From assembly GCA_016185945.1 (NCBI GenBank), contig JACPMR010000010.1:62001-126000 (forward strand): a DNA stretch of 64,000 nt, written 5' to 3'. Each line of letters opens with the position of its first letter. Position 1 is the stretch's first letter. The notes below the pieces were generated by a model. That model saw nothing but the letters and a program-made list of their open reading frames with translations. It was not told the origin of the DNA and ran no database searches. The position numbers and the translations under genes are program-made. Origin of the DNA: Candidatus Woesearchaeota archaeon. Its GTDB lineage: Archaea; Nanobdellota; Nanobdellia; Woesearchaeales; GW2011-AR4. Positions 9,789-59,684 of this stretch are shown here, piece by piece.

Positions 9789-9937
9789 ATTTTTTGTCCA
9801 TATCTACTACAAATCTTTCCTTGCATGATCTGCAGAATCCAATTATCTTGTACAGTTTTATGTGCTTTTTTGTTTTTTTCATTATTGATTTTTTCATTAT
9901 AGGTGTATAATTGGTTACTTTAAAATACTATGTTTTT

Positions 9938-11476: not shown

Positions 11477-11477
11477 T

Positions 11478-12611
11478 TTATGTACAAATCAAATCAAGTT
11501 TTCCCATTTCCAATGCTTTCTTTATCTCCAAACCGATTCTTTCTCCATAGCTGATTGAATAACCATAAAGATAGCCGCTATATGGTGTAAACAAAGTTCC
11601 TGGGCTTCCGGGAATGCGCATACTTACGTCAAAAATCACAATGTCTTCCTTGCCTTCTTCTGCAACGACAGCCCCCTGCAATGCAAATGGCCCGATTATT
11701 CCGGGTGGGTGAAATTTCTTTGTTGCTGCAACAAATCTTTCTCCAATTTCAAATGCTTTTTCAAGCAGAGACTCTTTGATTGTTACAGCATAATGTCCTG
11801 TCTCAATTAATTTTGGTTTTATGTGCCTTAAAACTTCTATTTGCTCTGTTGCAGGCAATCTCAAAATTCCATCCAGATTTGTCTGCCTTCTTGCGTCTGT
11901 GCCCATCAGCTCTAATTCGTTATTTAATGGACTGTAGAAAAAGTTGAAGTTGACATGAGCGCCAATAACATACTCTTCAATAACTGCTTTTTTCAAATCT
12001 TTTTTTGTTATTATTTTTTTGTTCAATAACTCTGTTGATTTTTCTTTATAATCTTTGTAAATTGAGCAAAAGAAAAATGCTCTTTCATAACTTCTTTTTG
12101 CCTCTGCAACTTTGACAATAACTAATCTGTCAATTTTCTTTGCGTCCTTGAAGATTTTTGGAGTTCTTATGCCTGCTTTTTCAAGCAAAAAGTATTGGTT
12201 TTTTGGAATGTCTCTTTCCTCAAGCTTAATCATGTCCCTTGTGCCGTAAATTGGCACCACAAATTTGTTTTCAATATCCTTGAAGTTGCAGTAAACCCAG
12301 AAATACCGGTTATGCACGAAGATTGTGTTTTTTTTTCTCAGCTCTTCCTGCACTTCTTTTTTTGTTATGTCGGAGAATTTATTAACAACTATTACATCAT
12401 CAACAAAGCCGATGCCTTCCCTTCTCTTGTAATATTTGGTGTATGTTTTTTCCCTTCCTTTCTGCGCAACAACAACTGTCTTGAAGCCGTGAGAATGAGC
12501 GCCCCTGCACACGTCCAGAGCAGAATGCCCGCCAAGCACTCCAATGGTTATGTGATTCTTGTCATAAGTTTCCAATATTTTTGAGATTTGTTTTTGTGTT
12601 ATCATTTTCAA
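11478..12611 (-). CDS. purP: PurP family (5-formaminoimidazole-4-carboxamide ribonucleotide synthetase), paralog 1
   Basis: GVLGGHSALDVCRGAHSHGFKTVVVAQKGREKTY; PurP/ATP-grasp signatures. Confidence 0.9.
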   Translation of the reverse strand: MKMITQKQISKILETYDKNHITIGVLGGHSALDVCRGAHSHGFKTVVVAQKGREKTYTKYYKRREGIGFVDDVIVVNKFSDITKKEVQEELRKKNTIFVHNRYFWVYCNFKDIENKFVVPIYGTRDMIKLEERDIPKNQYFLLEKAGIRTPKIFKDAKKIDRLVIVKVAEAKRSYERAFFFCSIYKDYKEKSTELLNKKIITKKDLKKAVIEEYVIGAHVNFNFFYSPLNNELELMGTDARRQTNLDGILRLPATEQIEVLRHIKPKLIETGHYAVTIKESLLEKAFEIGERFVAATKKFHPPGIIGPFALQGAVVAEEGKEDIVIFDVSMRIPGSPGTLFTPYSGYLYGYSISYGERIGLEIKKALEMGKLDLICT

Positions 12612-12684
12612 AATAATTTAAATTTAGTTTTTTAATGTCTTAATTTCAATTTGCCTGCTCAAATTTATATTGACAATTTTATCA

Positions 12685-12898
12685 TTTCAAACCGTCGCTG
12701 TTGCGTGCGAGAACGCTCGCACGCTCGCGTTCATGTCGGCGACATTAGTTACTGCACGTCGGCATTCTACTGTGAAGGCAGCATTCTTTTGTGCTCCTCC
12801 TCCGCGCCAATTTATTCAACAATTTCAGGCAGACATTCCTGAGCTGGGCTCCCACACCACCTTAGCAGATGCTGGGAAGCGACGTTTTTGTTTGAAAC
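12685..12898 (+). repeat. Family A repeat, copy A2, with an inserted GTGCGAG hairpin
   Basis: Core CGGCATTCTAC..GGCAGCATTC..TTTGTGCTCCTCCTCCGCGCC..CATTCCTGAGCTGGGCTCCCA..GATGCTGGGAAGCGACG conserved with the other copies. Confidence 0.9.
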
Positions 12899-30253: not shown

Positions 30254-30416
30254 TTAACTTCAAATCAAAAAACTGAACTTATCATATTTAAATTTTTCCA
30301 CTTTTACTACTAAAGAGTAAATTAAAAAGATTTGAAAAAAGAAAAGTTTATAAAAGGTTGTGTGTAACCATTGGAAAATTATAACTACTATTAAATAAGA
30401 AAGATTGTGATATTAA

Positions 30417-31826
30417 ATGACTGAAAAATTAGGTTCAAGTTTAATAGTTCTTGGCGCAGGCGGAGTAGGCTCTAGCGTCTTGGAACAGATTATAGCAGGA
30501 AGCCATAATTTTATGCGTAGTTTAGGTGGAATAGTGGTTGTTGATAGCGGGCATTTGGTTTTAATTCCTTATGACTCTAATCTGGGGGCTGTTAATGAAG
30601 AACATTTGAAATTAGTTCTTGAAGCCAAAAGAAAAGTTGTTGATGGAAAACGTGGAAGTCTAGGTTCTTTAAGGGATAGATTAGATATTAGGGAAATAGG
30701 TGAACTTTGGGATTATATAAATAAAGAGGATTTAGCAATTAACACCTTGCCAACTGAGTTCTCCAATTCAGAATCAGGTAAAAAAACTCAAGATGCCCTA
30801 ACCGCAAGAATCAGAGAACCTTCTCCATTTCTTTTAGCTAATCATATTCCCATATCCGTTTTATACAACATACTAGCAATGCAAGAAGGTGCACACGTAG
30901 TCGACGCATCAAAATCAGCTTTTGGAAAAAGGGAGTATTATCAAGCAATAAATATGGTTGCTTCAAGTAATTGTGTTGATTACGATCCAAATGGAGCAAT
31001 TATGGGTCCAACAAGTGCTTTTGCAGTGTTAAGATGGCTTACCGAGCATAGTATTGGCATAAAGAGTGTAAGAGCAATACTTAATGGAGCCACAAATTAC
31101 ATTCTTGGACGGGCGAAAGAAATAAGTGTTGAAGGAGCTTTGAGAGAAGCACAAATTAGAAAGATTGCAGAGTCCGACCCTACAGCCGATATTGAAGGGT
31201 ACGATCCTGCGCAAAAATTAAGAGTGATTGGGAATTCTTTGGATTTAGACGTGCACCCAAAAGTATCTGGCATAGATGATAAGCATCGCGGCATCGATGG
31301 GGTTACTAATGAATATCTACAAAAAATAAGAGATAATGGTAAACTTAAACTTATTTGTACTTTAGATACTACAACTAGAGAGGCAATAGTGCGTCCTGAA
31401 ATAGTAAGTCCAGATGACCCACTTTATGATGTAGATGGTACACAAAATGCAATTGTTCTTACTTTAGACCAAAAACTAAGATTAATAGAGCCTGGAAATT
31501 TGGATATCATTCGGAAAAAAGATACCACCAAACCAGAACCGGATATACTAAAAATGCTACTTTCTATCTATAGGCATACAACTACTATCAGTGCCAATGG
31601 TACATCTACAGTCAGGGTTACTTATCCTTCATTAAGTGAAGGACATAGAGTATACAACCATTATAAAATACAATTTGTTTACGATCCAAGAAGAAACCAG
31701 CTAATAATTAAAGGTCCTGGAGCAGGTGCTGCTGAGACAGCTGCTGCATTATTAGATGCAGCATACGCTACATTAGAACGACGCGGAGCATTAGTTGTAC
31801 CTGCACGTAAGCTTATTACACTTTAA
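30417..31826 (+). CDS. Homoserine dehydrogenase-like protein
   Basis: LGAGGVGSSVLEQI; AILNGATNYILG; AESDPTADIEGYDPAQKL; GPGAGAAETAAAL. Confidence 0.9.
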   Translation: MTEKLGSSLIVLGAGGVGSSVLEQIIAGSHNFMRSLGGIVVVDSGHLVLIPYDSNLGAVNEEHLKLVLEAKRKVVDGKRGSLGSLRDRLDIREIGELWDYINKEDLAINTLPTEFSNSESGKKTQDALTARIREPSPFLLANHIPISVLYNILAMQEGAHVVDASKSAFGKREYYQAINMVASSNCVDYDPNGAIMGPTSAFAVLRWLTEHSIGIKSVRAILNGATNYILGRAKEISVEGALREAQIRKIAESDPTADIEGYDPAQKLRVIGNSLDLDVHPKVSGIDDKHRGIDGVTNEYLQKIRDNGKLKLICTLDTTTREAIVRPEIVSPDDPLYDVDGTQNAIVLTLDQKLRLIEPGNLDIIRKKDTTKPEPDILKMLLSIYRHTTTISANGTSTVRVTYPSLSEGHRVYNHYKIQFVYDPRRNQLIIKGPGAGAAETAAALLDAAYATLERRGALVVPARKLITL

Positions 31827-31839
31827 AGGTTTAAGCCTT

Positions 31840-32907
31840 TTAATTTCTATTCAAACCAACCCCCTTCACCTTCATCAATTCAGCATTCAATATAGCAGCT
31901 CCCGCAGCCCCTCTTATTGTGTTGTGGCTTAAAACTAAAAATCTGTAATCCAAGATATTACATTTTCTTATTCTTCCAACAGCAACTGCCATTCCATTGC
32001 CTAAGTCCCTGTCATACTTTGGCTGTGGCCTGTCTATTTCTTCCCGAACAATAATAGGCGGGTTAGGTGCAGATGGAAGATTTAATTTTTTCAATGGATT
32101 GAAATTCTTGAAGGCGTTTTTGATTTCATCTAATGTCGCTTTTCTACCTAATTCGACATTAACAGCTTCCAAATGCCCGTCTTTGACATTTACCCTATTG
32201 CATTGAGCGCTTACTTTTATATCTGCATAAACAAACTTGTCATTTTTAACATTTCCCAATAACTTCAATGACTCTGACTCCATTTTTTCCTCTTCTCCGC
32301 CAATGTAAGGAACTACATTATCCAAAACGTCAAGAGAAGCAACTCCTGGGTAGCCGGCTCCGCTTACTGCCTGCATTGTCGTTACAAATACTTTCTTAAG
32401 CCCAAATGCATCCTGCAGTGGCTTTAGTGCCATAACTAACCCCATTGCAGAGCAGTTGGGGTTCGTTACAATAAATCCCTTTCCAAATCTCTGCTTTTGC
32501 TTTTTGATTATGGACAAATGCTCTGGATTAACCTCTGGAATAAGCAATGGCACATCATTATCCATTCTATGGTTTCTGGAATTGGATGATACAACATAGC
32601 CATTTTTTGCAAACTCCTCTTCTATTGGCCCTGCAACTGACGAATCCAAAGCTGAAAATATAATCCTGCAGTCTAAATTCGGCTTGCATTCTTTAACCTT
32701 CATTTTTCTTACTTTATTAGGAATCTCGGCACTTACTTTCCATCTTCCTTCCATTGCCTCTTCGTAAGTTTTACCTGCGCTTTTCTCTGATGCAGCAAGT
32801 TCTGCAATCTCAAACCAAGGATGGCTTTGCAATAAATCAATAAAACGCTGTCCAACCATTCCTGTTGCCCCTAAAATTCCAACTTTGATTTTGTTCATGT
32901 TTATCAC
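31840..32907 (-). CDS. asd: Aspartate-semialdehyde dehydrogenase
   Basis: KVGILGATGMVGQRFIDLL; VTNPNCSAMGLVMALKPL catalytic Cys. Confidence 0.97.
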   Translation of the reverse strand: MINMNKIKVGILGATGMVGQRFIDLLQSHPWFEIAELAASEKSAGKTYEEAMEGRWKVSAEIPNKVRKMKVKECKPNLDCRIIFSALDSSVAGPIEEEFAKNGYVVSSNSRNHRMDNDVPLLIPEVNPEHLSIIKKQKQRFGKGFIVTNPNCSAMGLVMALKPLQDAFGLKKVFVTTMQAVSGAGYPGVASLDVLDNVVPYIGGEEEKMESESLKLLGNVKNDKFVYADIKVSAQCNRVNVKDGHLEAVNVELGRKATLDEIKNAFKNFNPLKKLNLPSAPNPPIIVREEIDRPQPKYDRDLGNGMAVAVGRIRKCNILDYRFLVLSHNTIRGAAGAAILNAELMKVKGVGLNRN

Positions 32908-34223
32908 CCAAAAAATTCTTGATGCAGAGTTTTGACTGCTTTATCTGCGTCTTTTCCATCAACAACAAAAGTTACGTTTATTTTTGATGCCCCCTGGGAT
33001 ATCATCTCGACATTGATTTTCTTTTTTCCCAAAGCTGTAAATGTAGCACCCCCTATTCCCGGAGTGTATTTCATTCCCTCCCCAACTACACAGATAACTG
33101 CTTTGTCATTGGCAACTTCAACATCTGCAAATTCCTTCAGTTCATTCACTATGTAATTAAGATTTTCGCCGTTGTCAATAGTCAATGAAACGCTAACCTC
33201 TGATGTTGTGACTACATCAATGCTTTTCTTGTAGTCGTCAAAAATGTCAAATATCCTCGCCAGAAATCCATAGGCGCCAAGCATCCTGGTTGAGTCAATA
33301 TGGACAACCGTAATGTTTTTCTTGCATGCAATTGCCTTTACCGTCCTATCGGCTTTTCCCGCTTTGTTGACTATTGTGGTTCCTTTTCCTTTTGGATTGA
33401 ACGAATTCAAAACCTTGACAGGAATGTTTTTGTCCATTGCAGGCAGAATTGTTTTAGGATGCAAAACTCTAGCTCCAAAATAAGCAAGCTCAGATGCCTC
33501 TTCAAAAGAAACTTTTTCTATAGTTTTGGCATTTTTTACAATTCTGGGGTCAGTTGTCATGATTCCATCAACATCAGTCCAAATCTGGATTTCTTCTGCA
33601 CCGATTGCAGCGCCAATAATTGCTGCTGTGTAATCAGAGCCGCCCCTGCCGAGAGTTGTTATATCCCCAGCTTCTGTTTTTCCAATAAATCCAGTTATCA
33701 CAGGGATATGATTCAATTTTTTGATATTATTTTTCAGATTTGTATAAGCGATGGCAAGCGGTTCTGCGCTGCCAAATTCAGCGTCAGTCAAAAATCCAAG
33801 TTCCCATGAGTTGTATGCCTTGGCTTTTACTCCAATTTTGTTTAACTGCTCTGCAACAATCTTTGATGATATTCTTTCTCCAAATGACTGGAAATAGTCA
33901 AGTATTTCTTCATCGATATTTTTATTTGATTTTGTTTTATTGACTAAATTCGATAATTCCTGCAAGTCATTTTCTATTAAGGATTTATCTAATTCTAATT
34001 GTTCTATGATTTTATAATGTGTTTTTTTGATTAAATCAAAAGTTTCATCTCTTTTATCTTCTGCGCTTTCCTTGGCAAGTTTTATCAAATTGTCTGTTAT
34101 TTTTGTAACAGCAGAAACTACTACGACAGGATTCTTTTTAATATAAGATTTGACAATACTTGCAACATTCTTTATCCTATCTGAATTTCCTACAGATGTT
34201 CCGCCAAATTTCATTATTATCAT
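32904..34223 (-). CDS. lysC: Aspartate kinase
   Basis: MIIMKFGGTSVGNSDRIKNVA; TTLGRGGSDYTAAIIGAA; ACT domains. Confidence 0.96.
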   Translation of the reverse strand: MIIMKFGGTSVGNSDRIKNVASIVKSYIKKNPVVVVSAVTKITDNLIKLAKESAEDKRDETFDLIKKTHYKIIEQLELDKSLIENDLQELSNLVNKTKSNKNIDEEILDYFQSFGERISSKIVAEQLNKIGVKAKAYNSWELGFLTDAEFGSAEPLAIAYTNLKNNIKKLNHIPVITGFIGKTEAGDITTLGRGGSDYTAAIIGAAIGAEEIQIWTDVDGIMTTDPRIVKNAKTIEKVSFEEASELAYFGARVLHPKTILPAMDKNIPVKVLNSFNPKGKGTTIVNKAGKADRTVKAIACKKNITVVHIDSTRMLGAYGFLARIFDIFDDYKKSIDVVTTSEVSVSLTIDNGENLNYIVNELKEFADVEVANDKAVICVVGEGMKYTPGIGGATFTALGKKKINVEMISQGASKINVTFVVDGKDADKAVKTLHQEFFG

Positions 34224-34275
34224 TTTTAATTTTTTGATTTTTATTTTAATTATTTTATTTTTTAATATTTTAAAT

Positions 34276-34492
34276 TTTCAATCTGTCTGCGACGCATGCT
34301 ACTGCGCGTCGGCATTCTGCTGTGGAGGTTGCATTACTTTGTGCTCCTCCTCCGCGCCTATCTATTTAACACAAGTCAGGCGAACTTTCCTGAGCTGGGT
34401 TCCCATCAACGACAAAATTCGTTGACACTTTAGTCAAGTTGGGCATAAAGCCAAACGAACTTTGCAGATGCTGGGAAGCGACGTATTTTGAA
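34276..34492 (+). repeat. Family A repeat, copy A4 (extended apical insertion)
   Basis: GCGCGTCGGCATTCTGCTGTGGAGGTTGCATTACTTTGTGCTCCTCCTCCGCGCC...CTGAGCTGGGTTCCCA...GATGCTGGGAAGCGACG. Confidence 0.9.
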
Positions 34493-34530
34493 TTTTTGAT
34501 TAAATGTTTTTATTGTCATTATTGTTTTCT

Positions 34531-35706
34531 TTACCTCAAATATCTCTTTATTCTTTCAGCAGCTTTTTTAGTTTCATCTAGTGTCGGAACCAATGCAAAC
34601 CTTACATAATTTTCTCCTGGATTCAAGCCGTTGAATTTTTTTGAAATCCAAGCACCTGGTGTAACTACGACAGCAATTTCCTTTTGCAGGAGTTTTTTTG
34701 CAAATTCCACTGAGTTAATGCCCTTTGGCGTTTTCTGCCAGATGTAAAGGGTTGCATTAGGAGTGCAATCTTCCAAGCCGGCTGAAACTAAGGCATCAAC
34801 CAGAATGTCTCTTTTTTCTTTGTATTCTTGTCTCATTTTTTCTACATGCTTTTCGTCGCTTAAAGCAGCAATTGCAGCATCCTGAATAAAAGTAGGAGTG
34901 CCAGAGTCAATATTAGTCTTTAATTTCTTGAAAGCAGAAACTATGCTTTCATCTCCGGCAACCCAGCCAATCCTGTAGCCAGTCATTGCGCTTCTCTTTG
35001 AGAATGATTGGAATGAAACAACTCCTTCTTTCGAGAATTCCAAAATTGAATGCGGCTTCTTCCCGTAATAAATTTCTGTATAGCATTCATCGCTTGCAAC
35101 AATTATGTTGTTGTCGTGCCCAAAATCAATTGCTTCCCTGAAGAATTCTTCTGTTGCAACTGCTCCAGTAGGATTGTTTGGGTAGTTAATCCATAAAATC
35201 TTTGTTTTCTTTACAATTTCTCTGGGAATGCTGCTCAAGTCCATCAGATAATCCTTTTCTTTCAGCAAAGGAACATAATAGCTTCTGCCTTCTGCAAATA
35301 AAGTGCCCCTTTCATACGGAGGATAACCAGGATTCGGCATTATTACATAATCTCCTAGGTTAAGAAATGCCTCTGGAAAATTAAACACAGCTTCTTTTGC
35401 TCCTATTGTGGAGGTTATTTCCTTTTGGTAATCCAGATTAACCCCAAATCTTCTTCTTGTCCATTCAGCAAGTGCTTTCCTGTACTCATCTGTGCCAATG
35501 TAACTGGGATAGCCAGAACTTTTTCTTTCATCAACTGCTTTCTTTATTGCATTTCTCACTATTTCGGGAGTCGGTTCTTTTGGATCGCCAACTCCAAAAT
35601 CAATTGGAGCTATGCCTGATTTTCTCAGCTTTGCAACTTCATTGTCTACTTCCGCAAAGGCATATCCTGTAAGACTGCTTAATCTGTTTGAGATTTTTGT
35701 TTGCAT
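34531..35706 (-). CDS. PLP-dependent aminotransferase, probable LL-diaminopimelate aminotransferase
   Basis: Class I/II aminotransferase, SFSKRSAMTGYRIGWVAGD PLP Lys; operon with dapA/dapB/lysA. Confidence 0.85.
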   Translation of the reverse strand: MQTKISNRLSSLTGYAFAEVDNEVAKLRKSGIAPIDFGVGDPKEPTPEIVRNAIKKAVDERKSSGYPSYIGTDEYRKALAEWTRRRFGVNLDYQKEITSTIGAKEAVFNFPEAFLNLGDYVIMPNPGYPPYERGTLFAEGRSYYVPLLKEKDYLMDLSSIPREIVKKTKILWINYPNNPTGAVATEEFFREAIDFGHDNNIIVASDECYTEIYYGKKPHSILEFSKEGVVSFQSFSKRSAMTGYRIGWVAGDESIVSAFKKLKTNIDSGTPTFIQDAAIAALSDEKHVEKMRQEYKEKRDILVDALVSAGLEDCTPNATLYIWQKTPKGINSVEFAKKLLQKEIAVVVTPGAWISKKFNGLNPGENYVRFALVPTLDETKKAAERIKRYLR

Positions 35707-35712
35707 AGAACA

Positions 35713-36972
35713 TCACTTAAAGTTTTTAACTCCTGCAAAATCCAATGTTGCAAAATAATCCTCAACAGTTTCTGCCCTTCTGATTTGTGCAACGCTTCCA
35801 TCTTCTCTTAAAAGAAGCTCTGCTGAGCGAAGCTTTCCGTTATAGTTGAAGCCCATTGCAAATCCATGAGCGCCTGCATCATGTATTACAAGTATGTCTC
35901 CTCTTTCTATTTCAGGCAATTTCCTGTTTATTGCAAACTTGTCATTGTTCTCGCACAAAGAGCCAGTTACATCATAGACATTATTATATGGATCATTCTC
36001 TTTTCCTAAAACTGTTACATGATGATAAGCACCATAAATTGCAGGGCGCATTAAGTTAGCCATGCATGCATCTGTCCCTACAAAATTCTTATAGGTATGT
36101 TTTAGATGGAGTACTCGAGTTACTAAATAACCATAAGTGCCTGTAATTAATCTGCCGCATTCCATGAATATTTTAACAGGATGCAAATTGTTTTTTACAA
36201 TAATATTATTGTATGCATTTTTAACACCTCTTGCAATGTTTTCATACGAAACTGGTTTGTCCTCTAGCTTGTATGGAATGCCGATGCCCCCTCCCAAGTT
36301 GATAAATTCCAGCTTTATCCCTGTTTTTTGGTAAACTTCAACTGCAAGCTCAAACAGCATTCTGGCTGTCTCAATAAAATAATCCTCATTCAGCTCGTTT
36401 GAAATTATCATTGTATGCAACCCAAATCTTTTTGCGCCTTTTGACTTGAGTATTTTGTATGCTTCAAAAATTTGTTCTCTTGTCAATCCATATTTTGCCT
36501 CTTCTGGCTTGCCAATTATGTCAGTGCCTTTTCTTGCAGTGCCTGGATTAAACCTTAGGCAAATCACATTAGGAATGCCTGTTGCTTTTTCAAGAAACTC
36601 TATATGGCTTATATCATCTAAGTTTATTATTGCACCAAGCTGCTTTGCCTTCTGGTATTCAATTGCTGGAGTGTCATTTGAGGTAAACATTATTTCTTCT
36701 CCTCTAATTCCAACTTTTTCCGACATTAAAAGCTCTGGCAAAGAGCTGCAGTCAACTCCAAAGCCCTCTTCATGCAAAATTTTTAGAATGTACGGGTTTG
36801 GCGTGGCTTTTACTGCAAAATACTCTTTAAAGCCCTCAAGTATGCTAAATGCTTTCAAAAACCTTCTTGCATTTTTCCGAATAGCCATTTCATCATAAAT
36901 GTGAAAAGGCGTCGGATATTTTTTTATTATACCCAATACTTTTTCCTTTGAAAACGGAAGAATTTTCTTCAT
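35713..36972 (-). CDS. lysA: Diaminopimelate decarboxylase
   Basis: FAVKATPNPYILKILHEEGFGVDCSS; NLGGGIGIPY; DVTGSLCENND; GAHGFAMGFNYNG. Confidence 0.96.
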   Translation of the reverse strand: MKKILPFSKEKVLGIIKKYPTPFHIYDEMAIRKNARRFLKAFSILEGFKEYFAVKATPNPYILKILHEEGFGVDCSSLPELLMSEKVGIRGEEIMFTSNDTPAIEYQKAKQLGAIINLDDISHIEFLEKATGIPNVICLRFNPGTARKGTDIIGKPEEAKYGLTREQIFEAYKILKSKGAKRFGLHTMIISNELNEDYFIETARMLFELAVEVYQKTGIKLEFINLGGGIGIPYKLEDKPVSYENIARGVKNAYNNIIVKNNLHPVKIFMECGRLITGTYGYLVTRVLHLKHTYKNFVGTDACMANLMRPAIYGAYHHVTVLGKENDPYNNVYDVTGSLCENNDKFAINRKLPEIERGDILVIHDAGAHGFAMGFNYNGKLRSAELLLREDGSVAQIRRAETVEDYFATLDFAGVKNFK

Positions 36973-36973
36973 T

Positions 36974-37867
36974 TTATAATATTTTCAAGCTCTTTAAGAT
37001 GTTCCTTAATTTTTCCTTGTTTTCCGGCTTCATCTCGCACATCGGCAATCTGTATGCTTCTTTAATCATGCCTTTCATTGCCACTGCTGCCTTAATTGGT
37101 ATAGGATTTGTTTCTATGAAGATTCCTTTAAACAATGGCAATAAGTGGTAATGCAATCTTTTTGCACTTTCTAAATCGCCGTCTAATGCGTACTTACATA
37201 ACTCATGCATCTCTTTTGGAACAATGTTGCTTGCAACGGAGATAACACCTTTGCCGCCTAAAGCCATTAAGGGCAATGTTAAATTATCATCTCCTGAAAT
37301 CACTGCAAAATTTTTGGGCAGTTCATTTATGACATCCATCATCTGTGCTACATTGCCGGATGCTTCTTTCACTCCAACAATATTTGAGTGTTCTTTTGCC
37401 AATCTTGCCAGTGTTGCTGTCTCCATGTTAACTGCTGTCCTTCCCTGAATGTTATAGATAATTATCGGCAAATCAACTGCTTTTGCAATTGCGCTGAAAT
37501 GCCTGTACAAACCTTCCTGAGTTGGCTTGTTGTAATATGGGCATACATGCAATGTTGCATTTGCTCCAATATCTGCTGCCTTTCTTGTCAATTCAATTGC
37601 ATGCTCTGTTGAATTGCTTCCAGCTCCTGCAATAACCGGAACTTTGCCATTTGCAGCATCAACAACAGTTTTTACAACTTCAACATGCTCTTCTTCATTC
37701 AATGAAGGGCTTTCTCCTGTTGTGCCGCATGGCACAATCCCGTCAATGTGATTTTTTATTTGGAATTCAACCAATCCTTTCAAGCTTTCTAAATCTAGCT
37801 CACCATTTTCTGTGAATGGCGTAACAATTGCTGTGATAGCTCCTTTAAACATCTTATTCACCCCCAA
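36974..37867 (-). CDS. dapA: 4-hydroxy-tetrahydrodipicolinate synthase
   Basis: GIVPCGTTGESPSLNEEEH; IIIYNIQGRTAVN; GVKEASGN. Confidence 0.97.
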   Translation of the reverse strand: MGVNKMFKGAITAIVTPFTENGELDLESLKGLVEFQIKNHIDGIVPCGTTGESPSLNEEEHVEVVKTVVDAANGKVPVIAGAGSNSTEHAIELTRKAADIGANATLHVCPYYNKPTQEGLYRHFSAIAKAVDLPIIIYNIQGRTAVNMETATLARLAKEHSNIVGVKEASGNVAQMMDVINELPKNFAVISGDDNLTLPLMALGGKGVISVASNIVPKEMHELCKYALDGDLESAKRLHYHLLPLFKGIFIETNPIPIKAAVAMKGMIKEAYRLPMCEMKPENKEKLRNILKSLKIL

Positions 37868-38606
37868 TTATTGATTTCATCATGTCATTAATATCATAAA
37901 ATCCTTTTTTTCCATTTATCCATTGCGCTGCCATTACTGCGCCAAGCGCAAATCCTTCCCTGTTTCTTGCAACATGCTTTAATTCAATTGTGTCTGCACT
38001 GCTGTCAAACCCAACAATATGCGTGCCTGGGATTGAGCCTGCCCTTACAGATGCAAAATGCAATTCATCTGGCTCTATTTTTCTGTCTATTTTGCCATAT
38101 TCCAGCTTGCTTTTTCTCTTTATATTTTTTATTAAAATCTCAGCAAGAGTTTTTGCTGTTCCGCTTGGGCTGTCTATTTTTTTGTTGTGATGAAGTTCAT
38201 AGCCATAAACATCATAGTCCTCTATATTGTTGATTATTTTTGCAGCATTTTCGACTATCTTGAAAAACACATTTACACCAATTGAAAAATTTGATGCATA
38301 AATTAATCCTATATTGCTTTGATTGACTATTTTTCTTGCCTCTTCCAGCTTATCGTACCATCCAGTTGTGCCAACAACAATGTTTTTCCTGAATTTTGAG
38401 ATTTTTTGTATGCTGTCTATGACTGAGTTTGGTGTCGTAAAGTCTATGCATACATCCACGTCTTGCATTGAATCTTCATTGATTTCTCTGTGAGTTGCAT
38501 CACTCGCATTTGGGTCTATAATTGAAACTACATCTATGCCTTTGGCTTTTGCAATCTTCTCAATTTCATGCCCCATTCTTCCATATCCAACAATTGCGAT
38601 GTTCAT
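37854..38606 (-). CDS. dapB: 4-hydroxy-tetrahydrodipicolinate reductase
   Basis: IAIVGYGRMGHEIEKIA; ELHHNKKIDSPSGTAKTLAE. Confidence 0.96.
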   Translation of the reverse strand: MNIAIVGYGRMGHEIEKIAKAKGIDVVSIIDPNASDATHREINEDSMQDVDVCIDFTTPNSVIDSIQKISKFRKNIVVGTTGWYDKLEEARKIVNQSNIGLIYASNFSIGVNVFFKIVENAAKIINNIEDYDVYGYELHHNKKIDSPSGTAKTLAEILIKNIKRKSKLEYGKIDRKIEPDELHFASVRAGSIPGTHIVGFDSSADTIELKHVARNREGFALGAVMAAQWINGKKGFYDINDMMKSIIGGE

Positions 38607-50979: not shown

Positions 50980-51687
50980 ATGAACAAACTACTTAAAATC
51001 TACAACTCGCTCCATTCCCATTTCGGTTTACAAAATTGGTGGCCAGTAACCGAAGAAAGCAAGATTCATCCAGAGTATTCTGGCGGTCCTAAGAATGAAA
51101 AACAGCAATTGGAAGTAATTTTTGGCGCTATTCTTACACAAAATACAAGCTGGAAGAATGTGGAAAAAGCCATTGCTGAATTGAACAAAAACAATTTAAT
51201 TGATATCAAAAAAATAAATGAAATTGAGCATCAAAAATTAGCTAGAATAATAAAATCATCCGTCTACCACAATCAGAAAGCGAAGAAGCTGAAGAATTTC
51301 TGCAATTTTTTATTAAGAAATTATAATGGAAATTTAAGGCGATTGTTTAAAAAAAATGTTGGTGAATTAAGAAAAGAACTTCTATCCGTTAATGGAATCG
51401 GACCTGAAACTGCTGATTCAATAATCCTGTATGCAGCGAAAAAGCCCATATTCGTAATTGACGCCTACACAAAAAGGATAATCCATAGGGTTGGCTACAA
51501 TGAAAAAACTTATGACGAGCTGCAAAAGCTTTTCATGCAAAATCTTCCAAACAGCGAAAGATTATTTAATGAGTGCCATGCATTATTAGTAGAATTAGGG
51601 AAGAATATATGCAAGAAAAAACCGTTATGCGTTGAATGCCCAATTAATATGCATTGCAATTATTATAAAGCCTCATTCAAGCTTTAA
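50980..51687 (+). CDS. Endonuclease III-family DNA glycosylase
   Basis: AILTQNTSWKNVEKAI; LLSVNGIGPETADSIILYAAKKPIFVIDAYTKRI; C-x6-C-x2-C-x5-C Fe-S cluster. Confidence 0.94.
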   Translation: MNKLLKIYNSLHSHFGLQNWWPVTEESKIHPEYSGGPKNEKQQLEVIFGAILTQNTSWKNVEKAIAELNKNNLIDIKKINEIEHQKLARIIKSSVYHNQKAKKLKNFCNFLLRNYNGNLRRLFKKNVGELRKELLSVNGIGPETADSIILYAAKKPIFVIDAYTKRIIHRVGYNEKTYDELQKLFMQNLPNSERLFNECHALLVELGKNICKKKPLCVECPINMHCNYYKASFKL

Positions 51688-53283
51688 CTCTTTTAGAATA
51701 ACATTTGCTACATTCTCTGTTACCAACTGATTTGCCTTTAAGGTCGGATGCCCAAAAGTTGGACGAATATTATCCAAAAAATATTCGTTATATGATGCAT
51801 TTTCCAATGCTTTCTTAAAATTCTCTTCATTGCTGACAAAGATTATGTCTTCATCTCCTCTAAAATAGTTTTTTAAATCCCGCACATCTAAAGTAGGATA
51901 CTGCATTGCTATAAGTTTAATTCCTCTTTCATTTAGTGTCTTGTACAATTTCCTGTAATTTTCTTTTGGAGTTGGCCTATAGTAGCTTTCACTTTCTTTA
52001 AATGCCTTATTAATCATTTTATCAGCTTCATCAAACTGTCTGTTTTTCTCGTAACGAGTTGCTAGTGTTCCGTAAGCCATTATTTTTGCATTTTTTTCTT
52101 TAATATTCTCAAGTAACCCTTCCGCCTCTTGTGACCTATTATTTTTTAAATAATGCCATGCAAGTTCAGCATATGCAGCATAATTAGTTTGGTTTTTTTC
52201 AATTGTCCTTCTTAATAATTCTACAGTTTCATTAGTTTTTTCCAATTTCTCATAAAGCTCGCCTATCCAGAATATTTCCTCAATTTTGCCTGAGTTTTGT
52301 TCAATTACACCCTTTAACATTGTATAAGCCATAAAGGAGTTATTTAATTGCATGTAAAGTCTTGCTGATTGTATAAAGACGTGCTCGTCATATTCCTTTA
52401 TAACTTGCAGATATCTTAGATACTCTACTAGCGCTTCTCTTGGTCTATTAGTTTTAATATAGAGTTGTGCCAAATATAGGTATGCATATTTATCGTCAGG
52501 CTTTAGCTCAATAATTTTCTTAAGAACCCTCTCAGCATCTTCGTACATGCCTGCTAGAAAAAACCCGTAACCTAAATTGCTTTGTGGCTTAAAATCGTCA
52601 GGCTGTACCTCCAAAAGTTTCTTTGCCACTTGCGCGCTTTTAGCATACTTGCCATACTGTCCGTAAAATTTTCCCAATTCAGCCAATGCATTTAAATTCC
52701 CTGGTTCTTTCTCAACCTTCATTTTTAACTTTCTTTCTTCTGCCTTGTATTTTTTTTCTCTGTACCATTCTATTTTTTTAATAATCTCCTGCTTCAATGA
52801 CTTTATACTAAATTTAATTAAATTGTATATCCTAAAATCTTTCAAGATTAGAATAATTTTTTGATTATCTTTCGGCTTAAAGTAAAAATCCGGCTCGTTA
52901 ACCCCCATCATTGTGATTACCACGTGTGGTTTGTACTTATCTAAATTATCGTTTAAGTTCCTTACAATGTCGTAGCTGATTCCTGGCGAAATACCCTCAT
53001 TGAATACCTTGAACTTTACATTTTTGCTCTCTTTATTTAAAATAACGCCGAGCTCTTCTGGCCATGAACCCTGCCCATTACGAAGGTCCGCCGTTTCAGA
53101 GCCACCCAAGGCAAGAATACGATACGTACCCATTGTATTGCCTGCTTTGTTTTGATGACGCTGCCAAGCAATGTAACCAAAAGCATTGACACGAAGCACT
53201 ACTTCGAGCAGAATAATTATTAAAAGAAATCGAAATATTGCTATTCTTATTTTTCTCTTAGAAAATCTCAAAACTATCATCAA
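51673..53283 (-). CDS. Membrane-anchored SGNH-hydrolase-like protein with TPR repeats
   Basis: RILALGGSETADLRNGQGSWPEELGVIL; VITMMGVNEPDFYF; multiple TPR motifs; C-terminal RPTFGHPT. Confidence 0.85.
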   Translation of the reverse strand: MMIVLRFSKRKIRIAIFRFLLIIILLEVVLRVNAFGYIAWQRHQNKAGNTMGTYRILALGGSETADLRNGQGSWPEELGVILNKESKNVKFKVFNEGISPGISYDIVRNLNDNLDKYKPHVVITMMGVNEPDFYFKPKDNQKIILILKDFRIYNLIKFSIKSLKQEIIKKIEWYREKKYKAEERKLKMKVEKEPGNLNALAELGKFYGQYGKYAKSAQVAKKLLEVQPDDFKPQSNLGYGFFLAGMYEDAERVLKKIIELKPDDKYAYLYLAQLYIKTNRPREALVEYLRYLQVIKEYDEHVFIQSARLYMQLNNSFMAYTMLKGVIEQNSGKIEEIFWIGELYEKLEKTNETVELLRRTIEKNQTNYAAYAELAWHYLKNNRSQEAEGLLENIKEKNAKIMAYGTLATRYEKNRQFDEADKMINKAFKESESYYRPTPKENYRKLYKTLNERGIKLIAMQYPTLDVRDLKNYFRGDEDIIFVSNEENFKKALENASYNEYFLDNIRPTFGHPTLKANQLVTENVANVILKELKLE

Positions 53284-53314
53284 ATAAGGAAAGTTTATAT
53301 AGTCTATTTAAATT

Positions 53315-54802
53315 TTGTTGCAATTTAAAATGATATATTTATTCAACTCAATCGATTTCATCTTATTTTTTATTTTAATATTTCTTGCATATTGGATTCT
53401 GCCTAATCACTTCAAAAATATCTTTTTGCTTATTGTAAGTTATGTTTTTTATGCAAGCTGGAATTGGAAACTGTTAAGCTTGCTTTTGATTTCATCTATT
53501 GCAAATTATTTCTGCGGATTGTGGGTTCTCAGAGCAAAAAACCAAGCTTCAAAAAGATTCTATTTAATTTTGGGCATTTTATTTAATTTATCATTGCTTG
53601 GATTTTTTAAATATTTCAATTTTTTTGCTGAAAATTTCTTTAACTTGCTGAATGCTATAGGCTTCAAAGTGAGCTTTACAGCACTAAAGATTATACTCCC
53701 GCTTGGAATATCTTTCTATACTTTTAGAGCATTAAGTTACATTATTGATGTCTATACTAATAAATTTGCGCCAACAAGGAATTTCATTGATTTCTCTTTA
53801 TTTATTGCCTATTTCCCGCATTTGATTGCTGGCCCAATTGAAAGGGCAAAAGATATCGTACCTCAATTACAAGCTGAAAAACAGTTTAGGAATATTAACT
53901 ACAAAGAAGGTTTTTATTTGTTTATATATGGCTTGTTCAAAAAAGTAGTCATTGCTGACACAGTAGCATCTGTAGTCAATGGTATATTCGCATTTTCCAG
54001 TCCCTCAGGTGCACAAGTTTTGCTTGCAATATACGCTTTTGCAGTTCAAATTTATTGTGATTTTTCTGGCTATACCGACATGGCACGAGGCATCTCATAT
54101 TTTTTGGGAATTAAGTCGAGCATAAATTTTAATTTGCCATTTTTTACCAAGAAGCCTTCGGATTTTTTAAAACGATGGCACATAACTCTGTCAAAATGGA
54201 TTACAGATTATGTTTATATGCCACTTTTTTTCCATTTATCTGGAAAAAGCTTGATGTTTCTCAAGAATATTAGGGTTAAGTTTTACATTTCTGGTATTAT
54301 TGCAACTTTTGCCACAATGGTGGCATTTGGCTTTTGGCATGGTGCTTCATGGAATTTTATATTCATGGGCGTGTACCTATTTGCTATAGTCATGGCGTCC
54401 AAAGTTTTCGAATACTTATCAAAAAGATTTGTTCCAGCAATAAAGAACAAATTTATACAATATATAACTTCAGCATTAAGCATTGTGCTCACATCTCACA
54501 TAATTTGGTATGGACTAACATTTTCTTATAAATCTCAAAGTACGATACAAGTTTACACATTTACAAAATCATTAATCTCAAATTTTAAATTATCAGAACT
54601 ATTTGTTCTGAATTACTGGTATCTTTATTTATTTATAGCGTTTTTAGTCATTTATGAGGTACTTCAATATATGAAAAATGACGAATTATTCATCACAAAA
54701 CAAAATTTTTATATCCAGCTTGTATTTTATTTGATTATAGCCCTTGTATATATCAATGTTGGGGCTATAACAAATGTTGAATTTGTTTATTTCCAATTTT
54801 GA
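53315..54802 (+). CDS. MBOAT-family O-acyltransferase (AlgI/DltB-like)
   Basis: YFPHLIAGPIERAKDIVPQL; DFLKRWHITLSKWITDYVYMPL; FGFWHGASWNFIFMG. Confidence 0.94.
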   Translation: MLQFKMIYLFNSIDFILFFILIFLAYWILPNHFKNIFLLIVSYVFYASWNWKLLSLLLISSIANYFCGLWVLRAKNQASKRFYLILGILFNLSLLGFFKYFNFFAENFFNLLNAIGFKVSFTALKIILPLGISFYTFRALSYIIDVYTNKFAPTRNFIDFSLFIAYFPHLIAGPIERAKDIVPQLQAEKQFRNINYKEGFYLFIYGLFKKVVIADTVASVVNGIFAFSSPSGAQVLLAIYAFAVQIYCDFSGYTDMARGISYFLGIKSSINFNLPFFTKKPSDFLKRWHITLSKWITDYVYMPLFFHLSGKSLMFLKNIRVKFYISGIIATFATMVAFGFWHGASWNFIFMGVYLFAIVMASKVFEYLSKRFVPAIKNKFIQYITSALSIVLTSHIIWYGLTFSYKSQSTIQVYTFTKSLISNFKLSELFVLNYWYLYLFIAFLVIYEVLQYMKNDELFITKQNFYIQLVFYLIIALVYINVGAITNVEFVYFQF

Positions 54803-54808
54803 GTAATA

Positions 54809-55165
54809 ATGAAAATAAAAAATAAAATTGGAATTGGTGCAGATATTGTCAGAGTTAATAGGTTTGAAATCGTAAAAAATGACAAAAAATTTTTAAATAA
54901 AGTATTCTCTAAGAAGGAGATAGAATATTGTAGGAATAAAGCCAATGCTGCAGAAAGATTCGCAGCAAAATTTGCTGGGAAAGAAGCTGTTATGAAGGCA
55001 TTCAGCGCCTTTAACAAAAAAATGAATTTAAGCGATGTAGAGATTATAAACAAAAACAAAAGCCCAAAAGTAATAATAAAAAACCTTAAAGGGTTTAATA
55101 TAAACTTGAGTTTATCGCACGAAAGGGATTACGCTGTTGCTTTTGCATTAATAACAAAAGAATAA
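54809..55165 (+). CDS. acpS: Holo-[acyl-carrier-protein] synthase
   Basis: IGIGADIVRVNRFEIV...VFSKKEIEYCRNKANAAERFAAKFAGKEAVMKAF...SLSHERDYAVAFAL. Confidence 0.93.
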   Translation: MKIKNKIGIGADIVRVNRFEIVKNDKKFLNKVFSKKEIEYCRNKANAAERFAAKFAGKEAVMKAFSAFNKKMNLSDVEIINKNKSPKVIIKNLKGFNINLSLSHERDYAVAFALITKE

Positions 55166-55175
55166 GGGGGTAATT

Positions 55176-55427
55176 GTGGTAATAGAAAAAGTTATTGCTT
55201 TTTTGCAGTCAGACCCAGAGGTCAAGGAAAAATGGGATGATAAAGTTACCCATGACACGCATTTGATTGATGCTGGAGTTATAGATTCTTTCGCAATCAT
55301 AAAACTGATAATGTTTTTAGAGGAAGAATTTAACATTAAACTAGAGTCAAATGAACTCGTTGAAAACAATTTTTCTACTCTTAAAAATATTGAGAAACTT
55401 GTAATTGAAAAAAATAATCAAAAATAA
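55176..55427 (+). CDS. Acyl carrier protein
   Basis: DAGVIDSFAIIKLIMFLEEEFNIKLESNEL (DS phosphopantetheine site); GTG start with GGGGGT SD. Confidence 0.92.
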   Translation: MVIEKVIAFLQSDPEVKEKWDDKVTHDTHLIDAGVIDSFAIIKLIMFLEEEFNIKLESNELVENNFSTLKNIEKLVIEKNNQK

Positions 55428-57183
55428 GATGGCTGAACTAAAATTTAGCGAATATATCAACAAAAGCCCAACATTGGTTAAAAAACCGTCAATGAAAGAT
55501 GTTAAAGTTGCATTTCTATCAAATTTTACAATTACAGGGCTTGCTGAAACATTCAAAGTTTTATGCTATGAACATGGAATTTTCATTGATTGCTATACTG
55601 CCCCATATAATCAATATCAGCAAGAAATCCTAAACAAGTCCAGTCAGCTCTACAAATTTAATCCAGATATAATTTTTATTCTGTTGGATGGAGAGCAGCT
55701 TTTCAGCGATTTTTATTACTTTCCATATAGAATGAGCGAAGAGCAAAGAAAACAATTTATTGAAAATCAGTTTAAAGAAATAAAAAATTTGATTTCAATC
55801 TTAAAGGAAAATACTAATGCCAAGATTGTGATTAATAGTTTTCTTGTTCCACATTACTCAAGCAGAGGGATTATTGAAAACAAGCAAAAAAATGGAATAA
55901 GAAGTAGTATTCAGGCGCTTAACAGCATGCTTGAGTCGTTATCACATAAAAATTTGCAATTATTCGTATTTGATACAAGCATATTTTGTTCTAAAATTGG
56001 ATACGAGAATTTGGTTGATAAGAGACTATATTATTACGCTGACATGAAAATAGCACCAAAAGCATTGGTAAAATTAGCGAATGAGTATTTAGCATACATA
56101 ATCCCACTAGCATCTATGACAAAAAAATGCATTGTTCTTGATTTGGACAATACAATTTGGGGAGGCATTATTGGAGAGGATGGCATTGCAAATATAAAAC
56201 TTGGACCTGAAAAAGATGGTAAGCCATATTTTGGTTTCCAAAAAAGATTGCTTGAATTGCATGAGAGAGGCATTATATTGGCCATTAATAGCAGAAACAA
56301 CTATAAAGAGGCAATCGATGCGATAAAAAACCACAAATATATGGTTTTGAAGGAAGAACATTTTGCCAGCATAAAAATCAACTGGGAGGATAAAGCTACT
56401 AACATTAGGGAAATAGCGAAGGAAGTGAATATCGGATTGGAAAGCATGGTTTACATTGATGACGATGTCAGAAACCGGGAGATGATAAAGGAGCTTATTC
56501 CTGAAGTTTTTGTAGTAGAAATGCCAAATGACTATGCTATGTACCCTGAAGTTATTGAAAATCTGAAAATGTTTAACACTTTTAACATAACAAGCGAGGA
56601 CTTAAACAGGGGCAAGATGTACTTAAGCCAGAAAAAAAGAGAACAATTAAAGTCAAAAGTGCAGGACTTAAATTCGTTTATTAAAATGCTTGGAATTGAA
56701 ATAGACATTTCTAAAGCGAATAACTTTACTATACCCAGAATAGCGCAACTCACCCAAAGAACTAATCAATTTAACTTAACTACAAATAGATATAGCGAAG
56801 AAGACATCAAAAAACTAGCTTCAGATGGCAATCATTTAGTGTACGGAGTTAATGTCAAAGATAAATTTGGCGACAATGGGCTTACCGGAACATTTATTAT
56901 AAACAAAAAATTTAAGGAGAAATGGGTGATAGACACGTTTCTGTTAAGTTGCAGGGTGCTTGGCAGGGATATTGAAAAAGCCATGCTTAATGAGCTCATT
57001 AGCATGGCTCATAAGGAAGGAGTGAAAGAATTGATTGGAAAATATTTTCCAACTCAAAAAAATATGCAGACTGCTAAATTCTATGCAGAGAACGGGTTTA
57101 AGCATTTAGACGAGAATACTTTCTTGTGCGAGAATCCTAGTCCTACAGAGAATATCGATGCAATTAGTGTAATTTTAAATTGA
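55405..57183 (+). CDS. FkbH-like HAD-superfamily protein
   Basis: KCIVLDLDNTIWGGIIGEDGIANIKLG; VYIDDDVRNREMIKELIPEV; GNAT-like C-terminus. Confidence 0.95.
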   Translation: MKKIIKNKMAELKFSEYINKSPTLVKKPSMKDVKVAFLSNFTITGLAETFKVLCYEHGIFIDCYTAPYNQYQQEILNKSSQLYKFNPDIIFILLDGEQLFSDFYYFPYRMSEEQRKQFIENQFKEIKNLISILKENTNAKIVINSFLVPHYSSRGIIENKQKNGIRSSIQALNSMLESLSHKNLQLFVFDTSIFCSKIGYENLVDKRLYYYADMKIAPKALVKLANEYLAYIIPLASMTKKCIVLDLDNTIWGGIIGEDGIANIKLGPEKDGKPYFGFQKRLLELHERGIILAINSRNNYKEAIDAIKNHKYMVLKEEHFASIKINWEDKATNIREIAKEVNIGLESMVYIDDDVRNREMIKELIPEVFVVEMPNDYAMYPEVIENLKMFNTFNITSEDLNRGKMYLSQKKREQLKSKVQDLNSFIKMLGIEIDISKANNFTIPRIAQLTQRTNQFNLTTNRYSEEDIKKLASDGNHLVYGVNVKDKFGDNGLTGTFIINKKFKEKWVIDTFLLSCRVLGRDIEKAMLNELISMAHKEGVKELIGKYFPTQKNMQTAKFYAENGFKHLDENTFLCENPSPTENIDAISVILN

Positions 57184-57196
57184 TAATCTGAAAGCC

Positions 57197-57610
57197 ATGA
57201 AATATGAAGATATATTGATTGGAGATACGGCTTCATTCAAGCATACAATTACAGAAAAGGATGTTGAATTATTTGCAAAAATATCAGGTGACAAAAATCC
57301 GCTGCATTTTGATGAAAATTTTGCAAAAAAGGCAGATTTTTCAGGAAAGATAGTCCATGGAATGCTTGCCGGCTCATTGTTTTCGAAGCTTGTTGGTATG
57401 CATTTGCCTGGAAGATGTATTTATGTTTCGCAAGAACTCGAGTTTAAAAATCCCATAACCCCAAATACCGAAATCATTATAGAAGGAAGAGTAATAAAGA
57501 AGATAGATGTATTTAGATTGGTGACTATAGAGACAAATATCAAGGATCCATTGTCAAACAAAAAATACATAACTGGCAAAGCAAGAGTAAAAGTTCTAAA
57601 TGTCGATTAA
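57197..57610 (+). CDS. MaoC-like (R)-specific hydratase
   Basis: FAKISGDKNPLHFDENFAKKADFSGKIVHGMLAGSLFSKLVG. Confidence 0.94.
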   Translation: MKYEDILIGDTASFKHTITEKDVELFAKISGDKNPLHFDENFAKKADFSGKIVHGMLAGSLFSKLVGMHLPGRCIYVSQELEFKNPITPNTEIIIEGRVIKKIDVFRLVTIETNIKDPLSNKKYITGKARVKVLNVD

Positions 57611-58547
57611 AATGATATTCAGTGAGCTTAAGGAAAAGTATCCTTTACTTGTTGACACAGCTAACTATCTTGAACAGAATTCTTTCTTTTTCAGAACCAC
57701 TCTTACAAAAATTAAGGGCTCGGGGTTAGATTACGAATTGGCTGAAAAGCTTTGTAGTGATTGCCTAAATCATGTTAAACAGAATAGAGATGGGTATTTT
57801 AAATGCGTTCATACACTGATAGATTTCTCTCTTGAATTTCTAAAGCTGCAAATGCATCTGGAAAAGACAGGAAGGTACACCTATTCAACTTTCAAGGAAA
57901 TAGAAGAAAATATTTACAGCAATCCTAATAGAAAACTGAAAGGTCCGTGGTATACCTGGGCACTATACTTTTCACAAATTTTTTGGGTTAGCCACTGGAA
58001 TGTTTTTAGGTTTTTTCTATCAGAATTTGCAAAAAACAATAAAGAGCATGGAGAAGTGCTTGAAGTCCCAACAGGAACAGGGATTTATATTGCACAATTC
58101 CTTGCAAATAATCCATCGTGGCAGGGCACTGGTGTTGATTTAGGGAATACTGCTATCGAATTTACCAAAAACGTGCTTGCATGGAATAAAATACCAAGTC
58201 ATAGAATTGCTCTTTATAAAGAGGATATTTATAAATTTGAAACAGACAAAAGATTCGATAGGATTATGTGTGGAGAATTCTTAGAGCATGTTGAAGATCC
58301 TCTTGGTGTATTGATAAAACTCCACAAACTTCTCAAGCCTGATGGAAAATTATTTCTGACTGTTGCAGTCTATGCTGAAATGATAGACCATATTTATCTC
58401 TATAAGAGCGCTGATGAAGTACGTGGGCATGTAAAAGAAGCAGGATTTATACCTGAGAAGGAGCTTGTGCAGGCTATATTTGAAAACAAATCCCCTGAAG
58501 ATAGAGATACGCCAATTAACTATTGTGCTATACTCAAAAAGATTTAA
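57600..58547 (+). CDS. SAM-dependent methyltransferase
   Basis: VLEVPTGTGIYIAQFLANNPSWQGTGVDLGNTAIEF; MCGEFLEHVEDPLGVLIKLHKLLKPDGKLFLTV. Confidence 0.92.
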   Translation: MSIKMIFSELKEKYPLLVDTANYLEQNSFFFRTTLTKIKGSGLDYELAEKLCSDCLNHVKQNRDGYFKCVHTLIDFSLEFLKLQMHLEKTGRYTYSTFKEIEENIYSNPNRKLKGPWYTWALYFSQIFWVSHWNVFRFFLSEFAKNNKEHGEVLEVPTGTGIYIAQFLANNPSWQGTGVDLGNTAIEFTKNVLAWNKIPSHRIALYKEDIYKFETDKRFDRIMCGEFLEHVEDPLGVLIKLHKLLKPDGKLFLTVAVYAEMIDHIYLYKSADEVRGHVKEAGFIPEKELVQAIFENKSPEDRDTPINYCAILKKI

Positions 58548-59240: not shown

Positions 59241-59684
59241 ATGAACAAAAAAAACATTATTATATTTTTGACTGGATTGTTAATTCTGCTTTTAGACCAA
59301 CTAACCAAGTTCTTGATAAAACAAAATTTTCAGTTAAGCCACTCAACTCCAATAATTAAAAATATCCTTCATGTGACTTACATAACAAACACCGGCTCTG
59401 CTTTTGGCTTGTTTAAGGGCTTTAACCTGTTTTTTGTATTGTTTTCTGTTATTGTGGTTGTTACAATAGTTTATAATTTAAAAAAAATAAAGAATAATGA
59501 AAGACTATTGCAGTTTTCTGTCGGATTATTGATTGGCGGCACAATCGGAAATTTAATTGACAGATTGCTTTATGGCGCTGTGGTTGATTTTATTGATTTC
59601 AGAATCTGGCCCGTATTCAATGTAGCGGACAGCGCTGTAACTATAAGCATAATCATGCTGATAATTTTGCTGTGGAAGAGGTAG
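59241..59684 (+). CDS. lspA: Lipoprotein signal peptidase (signal peptidase II family)
   Basis: LLLDQLTKFLIK; NTGSAFGLF; LIGGTIGNLIDRLLYGAVVDFIDFRIWPVFNVADSAV. Confidence 0.95.
   Translation: MNKKNIIIFLTGLLILLLDQLTKFLIKQNFQLSHSTPIIKNILHVTYITNTGSAFGLFKGFNLFFVLFSVIVVVTIVYNLKKIKNNERLLQFSVGLLIGGTIGNLIDRLLYGAVVDFIDFRIWPVFNVADSAVTISIIMLIILLWKR

Follow-up and report, generated by a model that had tools for sequence, protein, structure and literature searches.

A gene cluster in a Woesearchaeota-like archaeon brings together an acyl carrier protein (ACP), the enzymes that would prime and load it, and a membrane O-acyltransferase (MBOAT) of the DltB kind. We propose, with moderate confidence, that it carries out ACP-dependent O-acylation of the cell surface with a glycerate-derived group, in a relay like that of the bacterial Dlt pathway but with a different loader. 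The cluster lies at 51.7-58.5 kb of the window, i.e., the whole stretch of 64,000 nucleotides analyzed here, which corresponds to 62001-126000 on a contig of 318 kb from a 1.5-Mb metagenome-assembled genome (MAG; completeness 90.7%, contamination 1.2%). All seven of its open reading frames (ORFs) were confirmed at the positions and on the strands first assigned to them, and the features are as follows.

51673..53283, minus strand: SGNH/GDSL-type protein with an N-terminal membrane anchor and a TPR insertion; conserved S62, N129, D504 and H512; orthologues match PF13472/PF00657; putative extracytoplasmic acyl-transfer or esterase partner
53284..53329, no single strand: divergent promoter region; GGAAAG-TTTATATA (about 53288-53301) for MBOAT, TTTAAATA on the minus strand for SGNH
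53315..54802, plus strand: MBOAT O-acyltransferase, DltB/AlgI-like; PF03062, WHG motif
54809..55165, plus strand: AcpS, holo-ACP synthase (phosphopantetheinyl transferase); PF01648, TIGR00516
55176..55427, plus strand: ACP, phosphopantetheine Ser38 (D37-S38-F39); PF00550 over cut-off
55405..57183, plus strand: FkbH, predicted glyceryl-ACP-forming HAD-IIIC transferase/phosphatase with an FkbH_N domain; TIGR01686, PF21211
57197..57610, plus strand: MaoC-like (R)-hydratase/dehydratase; PF01575, hydratase-2 motif SGDxNPLH intact
57600..58547, plus strand: SAM-dependent methyltransferase, N-terminal region of ~130 residues plus a class I domain; PF13489 (Methyltransf_23)

As read from the sequence, the likely true starts of SGNH, MBOAT and FkbH are ATG codons at 53280, 53330 and 55429, respectively. 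The co-directional genes, from MBOAT to the methyltransferase, are separated by gaps of at most 15 bp. An archaeal TATA box, TTTATATA, lies ~30 bases upstream of the MBOAT ATG, and another, TTTAAATA, at a similar distance upstream of the SGNH ATG, both at the spacing of leaderless transcripts. Such a box was found at leaderless distance before 19 of 59 ORFs of at least 100 aa, as compared to 2.9% of random positions, and the scan detected none before the internal operon genes of at least 100 aa. Given the short gaps, the boxes at both divergent starts and the lack of internal ones, the co-directional genes appear to form a single operon that is native to the archaeon and has the SGNH gene as its divergent partner.

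The first-pass annotation had named all seven products, and matches to Pfam and NCBIfam models, together with intact catalytic residues, bear these identities out. The ACP scores 25.3 bits against PF00550 (E 1.8e-5, cut-off 20.8), is the sole match to this model in the genome, and scores below cut-off with DltC models. It keeps the modifiable serine, Ser38, so the objection that the carrier might lack one does not apply. AcpS matches PF01648 (E 8.8e-16), with the motif GKEAVMKAF intact, and exceeds the cut-offs of both TIGR00516 (60.9 bits versus 59.8) and TIGR00556; its gene sits within the operon, in agreement with the early suggestion that it is dedicated to this locus. FkbH is full-length and matches TIGR01686 (E 5.5e-93, 311 bits versus a cut-off of 147) with the FkbH_N domain at its N-terminus (PF21211, E 7e-17). 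Its motif DLDNTIWGG is intact, and the DxD motif and the cysteine of SCR are invariant in seven archaeal sequences. The genome also encodes phosphoglycerate kinase, which makes supply of the FkbH precursor plausible, and a CoaB domain for CoA.

Two side observations concern these proteins. The phosphoglycerate kinase ORF (G000:C9:47591-49072, 526 aa) is matched by PF00162 as two overlapping pieces, suggesting an insertion. Separately, a second, short FkbH-domain protein of ~355 aa without FkbH_N is encoded at G000:C1:66907-67860 (L028, 8796-9854) and in L029, L042, L043 and L044; these proteins form their own clade in the genus, and an AAC(3)-like gene lies a few kb away in most of these loci.

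Among the predicted tailoring and transfer proteins, MaoC matches PF01575 (E 6e-22) with its active-site motif, SGDKNPLH, intact, and the methyltransferase matches Methyltransf_23 (PF13489, E 2e-14); an AlphaFold2 model of the latter, built from a two-sequence alignment, was too poor for use (mean pLDDT 47). The MBOAT matches PF03062 (E 8e-13) and contains the catalytic WHG motif, and its best solved relatives are the DltB structures 6bug and 8jem (E 1e-22). Against the DltB model TIGR04091 it scores 155 (E 3e-45), under the equivalog cut-off of 375, and we thus regard it as DltB-like rather than as DltB. The SGNH-TPR protein by itself matches TPR models only, and a search of it for DltD (PF04914) gave no match; a TPR insertion is present. 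Its orthologues in four other genomes match PF13472/PF00657 (GDSL/SGNH), two of them over the curated cut-off. Moreover, the GGS, GVN and FGH motifs are intact, and Ser62, Asn129, Asp504 and His512 are invariant across all six SGNH-TPR sequences. An AlphaFold2 model (pLDDT 75) displays a TPR superhelix, and a fold search with it returned TPR-type helical-repeat proteins alone among the best 50 matches, which is uninformative on the SGNH part.

Comparison with other archaeal loci shows that the operon is a hybrid, i.e., that its loader half (FkbH and MaoC) belongs with one kind of module and its carrier-and-transfer half (ACP, MBOAT and methyltransferase) with another, since FkbH and MaoC are nearest those of L030 while the ACP and the methyltransferase are nearest those of Dlt-like loci. 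With regard to the first kind, at least six other archaeal loci (L025, L026, L027, L030, L031 and L034) carry an AcpS-FkbH-ACP-MaoC module, and none of these six contains an MBOAT. In the FkbH tree, an all-archaeal clade of six is recovered with support 100/100, in which the window protein is nearest to that of L030 (52% identity); its MaoC is likewise nearest to the L030 MaoC (62/135 identities, 46%). These modules share MaoC and AcpS with the window operon, and their FkbH proteins are 46-52% identical within the clade of six (34% for L031). They differ from it in having another type of ACP and, instead of MBOAT and methyltransferase, an AAC(3)-like N-acyltransferase downstream (L025, L026, L027 and L031), a ketoreductase-like short-chain dehydrogenase/reductase (SDR; L030 and L031), or neither. 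L026, L031 and L034 are situated within sugar-nucleotide gene clusters.

The second kind is represented by three Dlt-like loci. The first, L033 (G222:C3:193001-213000, 2937-10162), is found in Woesearchaeota CG10_45_16, of the same order as the window genome, and encodes an MBOAT, a DltD-like protein, a second SGNH protein, a cupin-like protein, a methyltransferase, a DltA-like ligase, an ACP and AcpS. The second, L082 (G046:C7:23001-40000, 6186-12747), encodes a DltA-like ligase, a GNAT protein, an ACP, an alanine racemase (TIGR00492, 399 bits), an MBOAT, a DUF1574 protein and AcpS; it is a candidate D-alanylation system for an archaeal surface and possibly more striking than the window operon. 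These two loci resemble the window operon in their MBOAT, SGNH/DltD-like protein, related ACP and AcpS, and L033 in its methyltransferase too, yet their loader is a DltA-like amino-acid adenylation enzyme, accompanied in G046 by the racemase. In local alignments scored against shuffled sequences, the window ACP reached z values of 12.4 with L033, 10.4 with L082 and 9.4 with a locus of Sinorhizobium meliloti (L088, see below), as opposed to at most 5.0 with any other ACP; those of the MBOAT-less FkbH modules all fall in this lower group. The methyltransferase is 42% identical to that of L033, its only confirmed close relative, and AcpS, being about equally close to both kinds of module, does not discriminate between them. 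The linkage of these genes is conserved only in part: MBOAT-ACP-AcpS recurs, once with the methyltransferase, though with a different loader, and FkbH-ACP-MaoC-AcpS is conserved in archaea, though without MBOAT. In the third Dlt-like locus (L083; G009, same genus), SGNH proteins and a divergent MBOAT accompany an acyl-AMP ligase, ACP and AcpS. Most archaeal MBOATs of the class adjoin no ACP, and SGNH-type genes lie near several of those examined.

Other ACP-related loci were seen alongside these. A second ACP system recurs in L036, L038, L039, L041, L085 and L086, where AcpS lies beside an AMP-binding protein of 780-830 residues (~3 kb apart in L038) with an internal PF00550 match in L085 and L086. 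In L035 (G020, 175-6339), HMG-CoA-synthase-like, thiolase-like and OB-fold-like proteins are encoded together with MaoC, an SDR, a desaturase-like membrane protein and AcpS; this locus, near a 1035-residue adenylation protein, is possibly another acyl pathway.

The closest characterized counterpart of the window operon is the Dlt pathway (DltA-D with AcpS), which D-alanylates teichoic acid. It is closer than the AlgI and PatA/B systems, which had been named alongside DltB at first, in view of the MBOAT's nearest structures and of the related loci with DltA-like ligases. In Dlt, an MBOAT, DltB, is supplied with its acyl group by a carrier protein, DltC, a single surface of which serves AcpS, DltA and DltB (PMC9338922), while the role of DltD in transfer is still debated (PMC11035591). 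Both systems gather in one locus a DltB-kind MBOAT, a small carrier protein, AcpS for priming and an SGNH-fold extracellular partner, the last being putative in the archaeon. Unlike Dlt, the window operon has FkbH in place of a DltA-type ligase (no adenylation gene, i.e., D-alanine ligase, is present among the operon's ORFs and domains), as well as an additional MaoC and methyltransferase; moreover, its SGNH gene is divergent with a TPR insertion, no DltX was seen, and its archaeal host has no known teichoic acid. The presence of FkbH argues against D-alanine as the acyl group here.

Bacteria were sampled through plasmids and one pattern scan. On pSymB of S. meliloti (L088, CP140883.1), in a locus for which our search showed no characterization, MBOAT, an SGNH-like protein, ACP and FkbH are encoded consecutively; the SGNH-like protein is annotated as a TonB-dependent receptor and has no Pfam match, and its sequence contains the motifs GGSTT and DPGH. 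All four core activities thus stand in one co-directional run with a significantly related ACP, but the run lacks AcpS, MaoC and the methyltransferase, its MBOAT is on a long branch and its FkbH is only ~31% identical. Given this bacterial core, an FkbH-fed MBOAT does not amount to a new category, and the novelty of the archaeal operon, with its MaoC and methyltransferase, is that of a variant. A Metabacillus plasmid (L095) encodes ACP, an AMP-binding enzyme and MBOAT, followed by a hypothetical protein of ~300 residues. The other plasmid FkbH loci examined were of the tetronate type (L089 and L120) or sugar type (L090, L119 and L121), or, in Rahnella (L122), an FkbH-MaoC-SDR set, and a scan of viral contigs with FkbH yielded three loci, none with an MBOAT.

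From these comparisons we infer each reaction, the acyl group, its acceptor and the SGNH partnership as follows. AcpS would prime the ACP, and FkbH would take the glyceryl unit of 1,3-bisphosphoglycerate, dephosphorylate it and load it onto the ACP, thereby taking the part that DltA plays with D-alanine. MaoC, possibly together with the methyltransferase, would then modify the ACP-bound three-carbon unit: acting on a 2,3-dihydroxyacyl thioester, MaoC could eliminate the 3-hydroxyl and convert glyceryl-ACP into pyruvyl-ACP, or the methyltransferase, which may act on the acyl group or instead on the acceptor, might in the former case yield an O-methyl-glyceryl group. Whether the group transferred is glyceryl, pyruvyl or O-methylated we can say only with low confidence. 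On the cytoplasmic side, the ACP would hand its acyl group to the MBOAT, which would relay it through the membrane. The group would end up on a hydroxyl outside the cell, whether of a glycan, a lipid or an S-layer component, and the outer partner of the MBOAT would probably be the SGNH-TPR protein with its membrane anchor. ACP-dependent surface O-acylation, which had been put forward from the start, stands as the best function class, in line with the protein families and their residues, the DltB-like MBOAT and the kinship of the ACP to those of MBOAT loci. The other early suggestion, a small polyketide-like pathway, found no support, and a polyketide or fatty-acid pathway was rejected, as neither the ORFs nor the domains of the locus include a ketosynthase (the rest of the genome was not searched for one).

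Several points weigh against surface O-acylation or qualify the case for it. The exact full gene set was found in no other genome, which leaves one MAG as the basis for the operon as a whole. Among 281 genomes of the class, AcpS is present in 15 (13 over cut-off) and MBOAT in 14 (12 over cut-off), and the two occur together only in this genome and in G222, i.e., 2 shared genomes versus about 0.75 expected; as this co-occurrence is not significant alone, the argument for the operon rests on adjacency and sequence kinship. The phylogeny of the MBOAT resolved neither its position nor its donor, and the MBOAT-linked ACPs of L083 and Metabacillus are not above background with the window ACP. Across 371 genomes of the phylum, the methyltransferase has a single other relative, that of L033, and a contig scan with the alignment of the two (two short patterns, not exhaustive) recovered the G222 locus and one weak Nitrospira match only; since the enzyme occurs alongside FkbH in one locus and an amino-acid-type loader in the other, it may act on something other than the acyl group. 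In addition, the MaoC step on glyceryl-ACP is a chemical inference, and no acceptor polymer is known. Finally, its divergent position, its membrane anchor and the analogy to DltD make the SGNH-TPR protein plausible as outer partner of the MBOAT, yet this link is weak, and weaker than first claimed, because its orthologues in the other confirmed genomes do not adjoin MBOAT genes.

An unlikely alternative is that FkbH, ACP, MaoC and the methyltransferase supply the acyl group with which a nucleotide sugar in the cytoplasm is N- or O-acylated, and that the MBOAT is an independent O-acetyltransferase placed in the operon by chance. The archaeal modules followed by an AAC(3)-like N-acyltransferase may do just this, and it would suit those in sugar-nucleotide clusters, all of them without an MBOAT, as well as the general lack of ACPs beside MBOATs in the class. 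The window operon, however, lacks both AAC(3)-like and sugar-nucleotide genes; its ACP belongs with those of the MBOAT loci L033 and L082, its MBOAT is the first gene of an operon with one promoter, and the S. meliloti core is the same.

We consider it more improbable still that the product of the operon is a small metabolite that diffuses away or a lipid of an unusual type (e.g., an O-methylglyceryl ester of an archaeal lipid), with the MBOAT acylating lipid cytoplasmically and the SGNH protein unrelated. MBOATs do acylate lipids too, and MaoC and methyltransferases are typical tailoring enzymes, but the characterized MBOATs of the DltB/AlgI group modify extracellular polymers. FkbH is paired with an O-methyltransferase in methoxymalonyl-ACP pathways (PMC7489565), and glycerate-utilization and methoxymalonyl-ACP sets (tetronate, FK520-type) combine FkbH with a stand-alone ACP and sometimes an O-methyltransferase (PMC7489565). 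Unlike the window operon, these sets feed a polyketide synthase or FabH-like enzyme, neither of which was seen there; nor does the operon contain a ketosynthase, FkbI/FkbK-type dehydrogenases or lipid-specific genes, and the divergent SGNH gene, like those near several archaeal MBOATs, also speaks against this explanation. As for a recent bacterial acquisition or an assembly chimera without function in the archaeon, the patchy distribution of AcpS, ACP and MBOAT in the class and the GC content of the operon (29-35%, slightly below the window mean of 35.7%) could point that way, but it is largely refuted, and very improbable, given the archaeal genes within a few kb on either side in a 318-kb contig, which with the archaeal TATA boxes at both divergent starts speak against a chimera with bacterial DNA or contamination, as well as the placement of FkbH within the archaeal clade of six genomes and the active sites intact throughout.

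If surface O-acylation by this operon is correct, an archaeal surface polymer would carry a glycerate-derived ester (glyceryl, pyruvyl or methyl-glyceryl), which our literature search found described for no archaeon; the bacterial counterpart is the D-alanine on some bacterial cell walls, not previously known for archaea. The same search found no paper on FkbH with an MBOAT, nor on an archaeal Dlt-like, D-alanylation or FkbH-MBOAT system. To our knowledge, archaea generally lack ACP-based fatty-acid synthesis, and yet the carrier, its predicted priming and loading enzymes and the membrane transferase are all encoded in this one operon. In DPANN MAGs, ACP-type fatty-acid genes have been reported, with next best hits in bacteria (PMC10936187). 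Surface O-acylation by the operon would also mean that the DltA step is replaceable and that FkbH-fed MBOAT acylation is a general device, in S. meliloti pSymB too. We further raise, tentatively and at slightly less than even chances, the idea that surface acylation of the Dlt type exists in DPANN archaea as a set of related relays whose loaders can be exchanged: some would use a DltA-like ligase together with alanine racemase, and this one FkbH with MaoC and methyltransferase. The operon suggests that DPANN archaea acquired and recombined bacterial Dlt-type logic, altering their surface chemistry; DPANN cells are often attached to hosts and use their surface for meeting other cells.

Elsewhere in the window, a lipoprotein signal peptidase II (LspA, TIGR00077 over cut-off) is encoded in this archaeal genome just downstream of the operon, at 59241-59684. 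A large block for threonine and diaminopimelate-type lysine biosynthesis occupies 27575-38606 in this small DPANN genome and comprises, by eye, two aspartokinases (one apparently fused to homoserine dehydrogenase), dapA, dapB, an aminotransferase and lysA.

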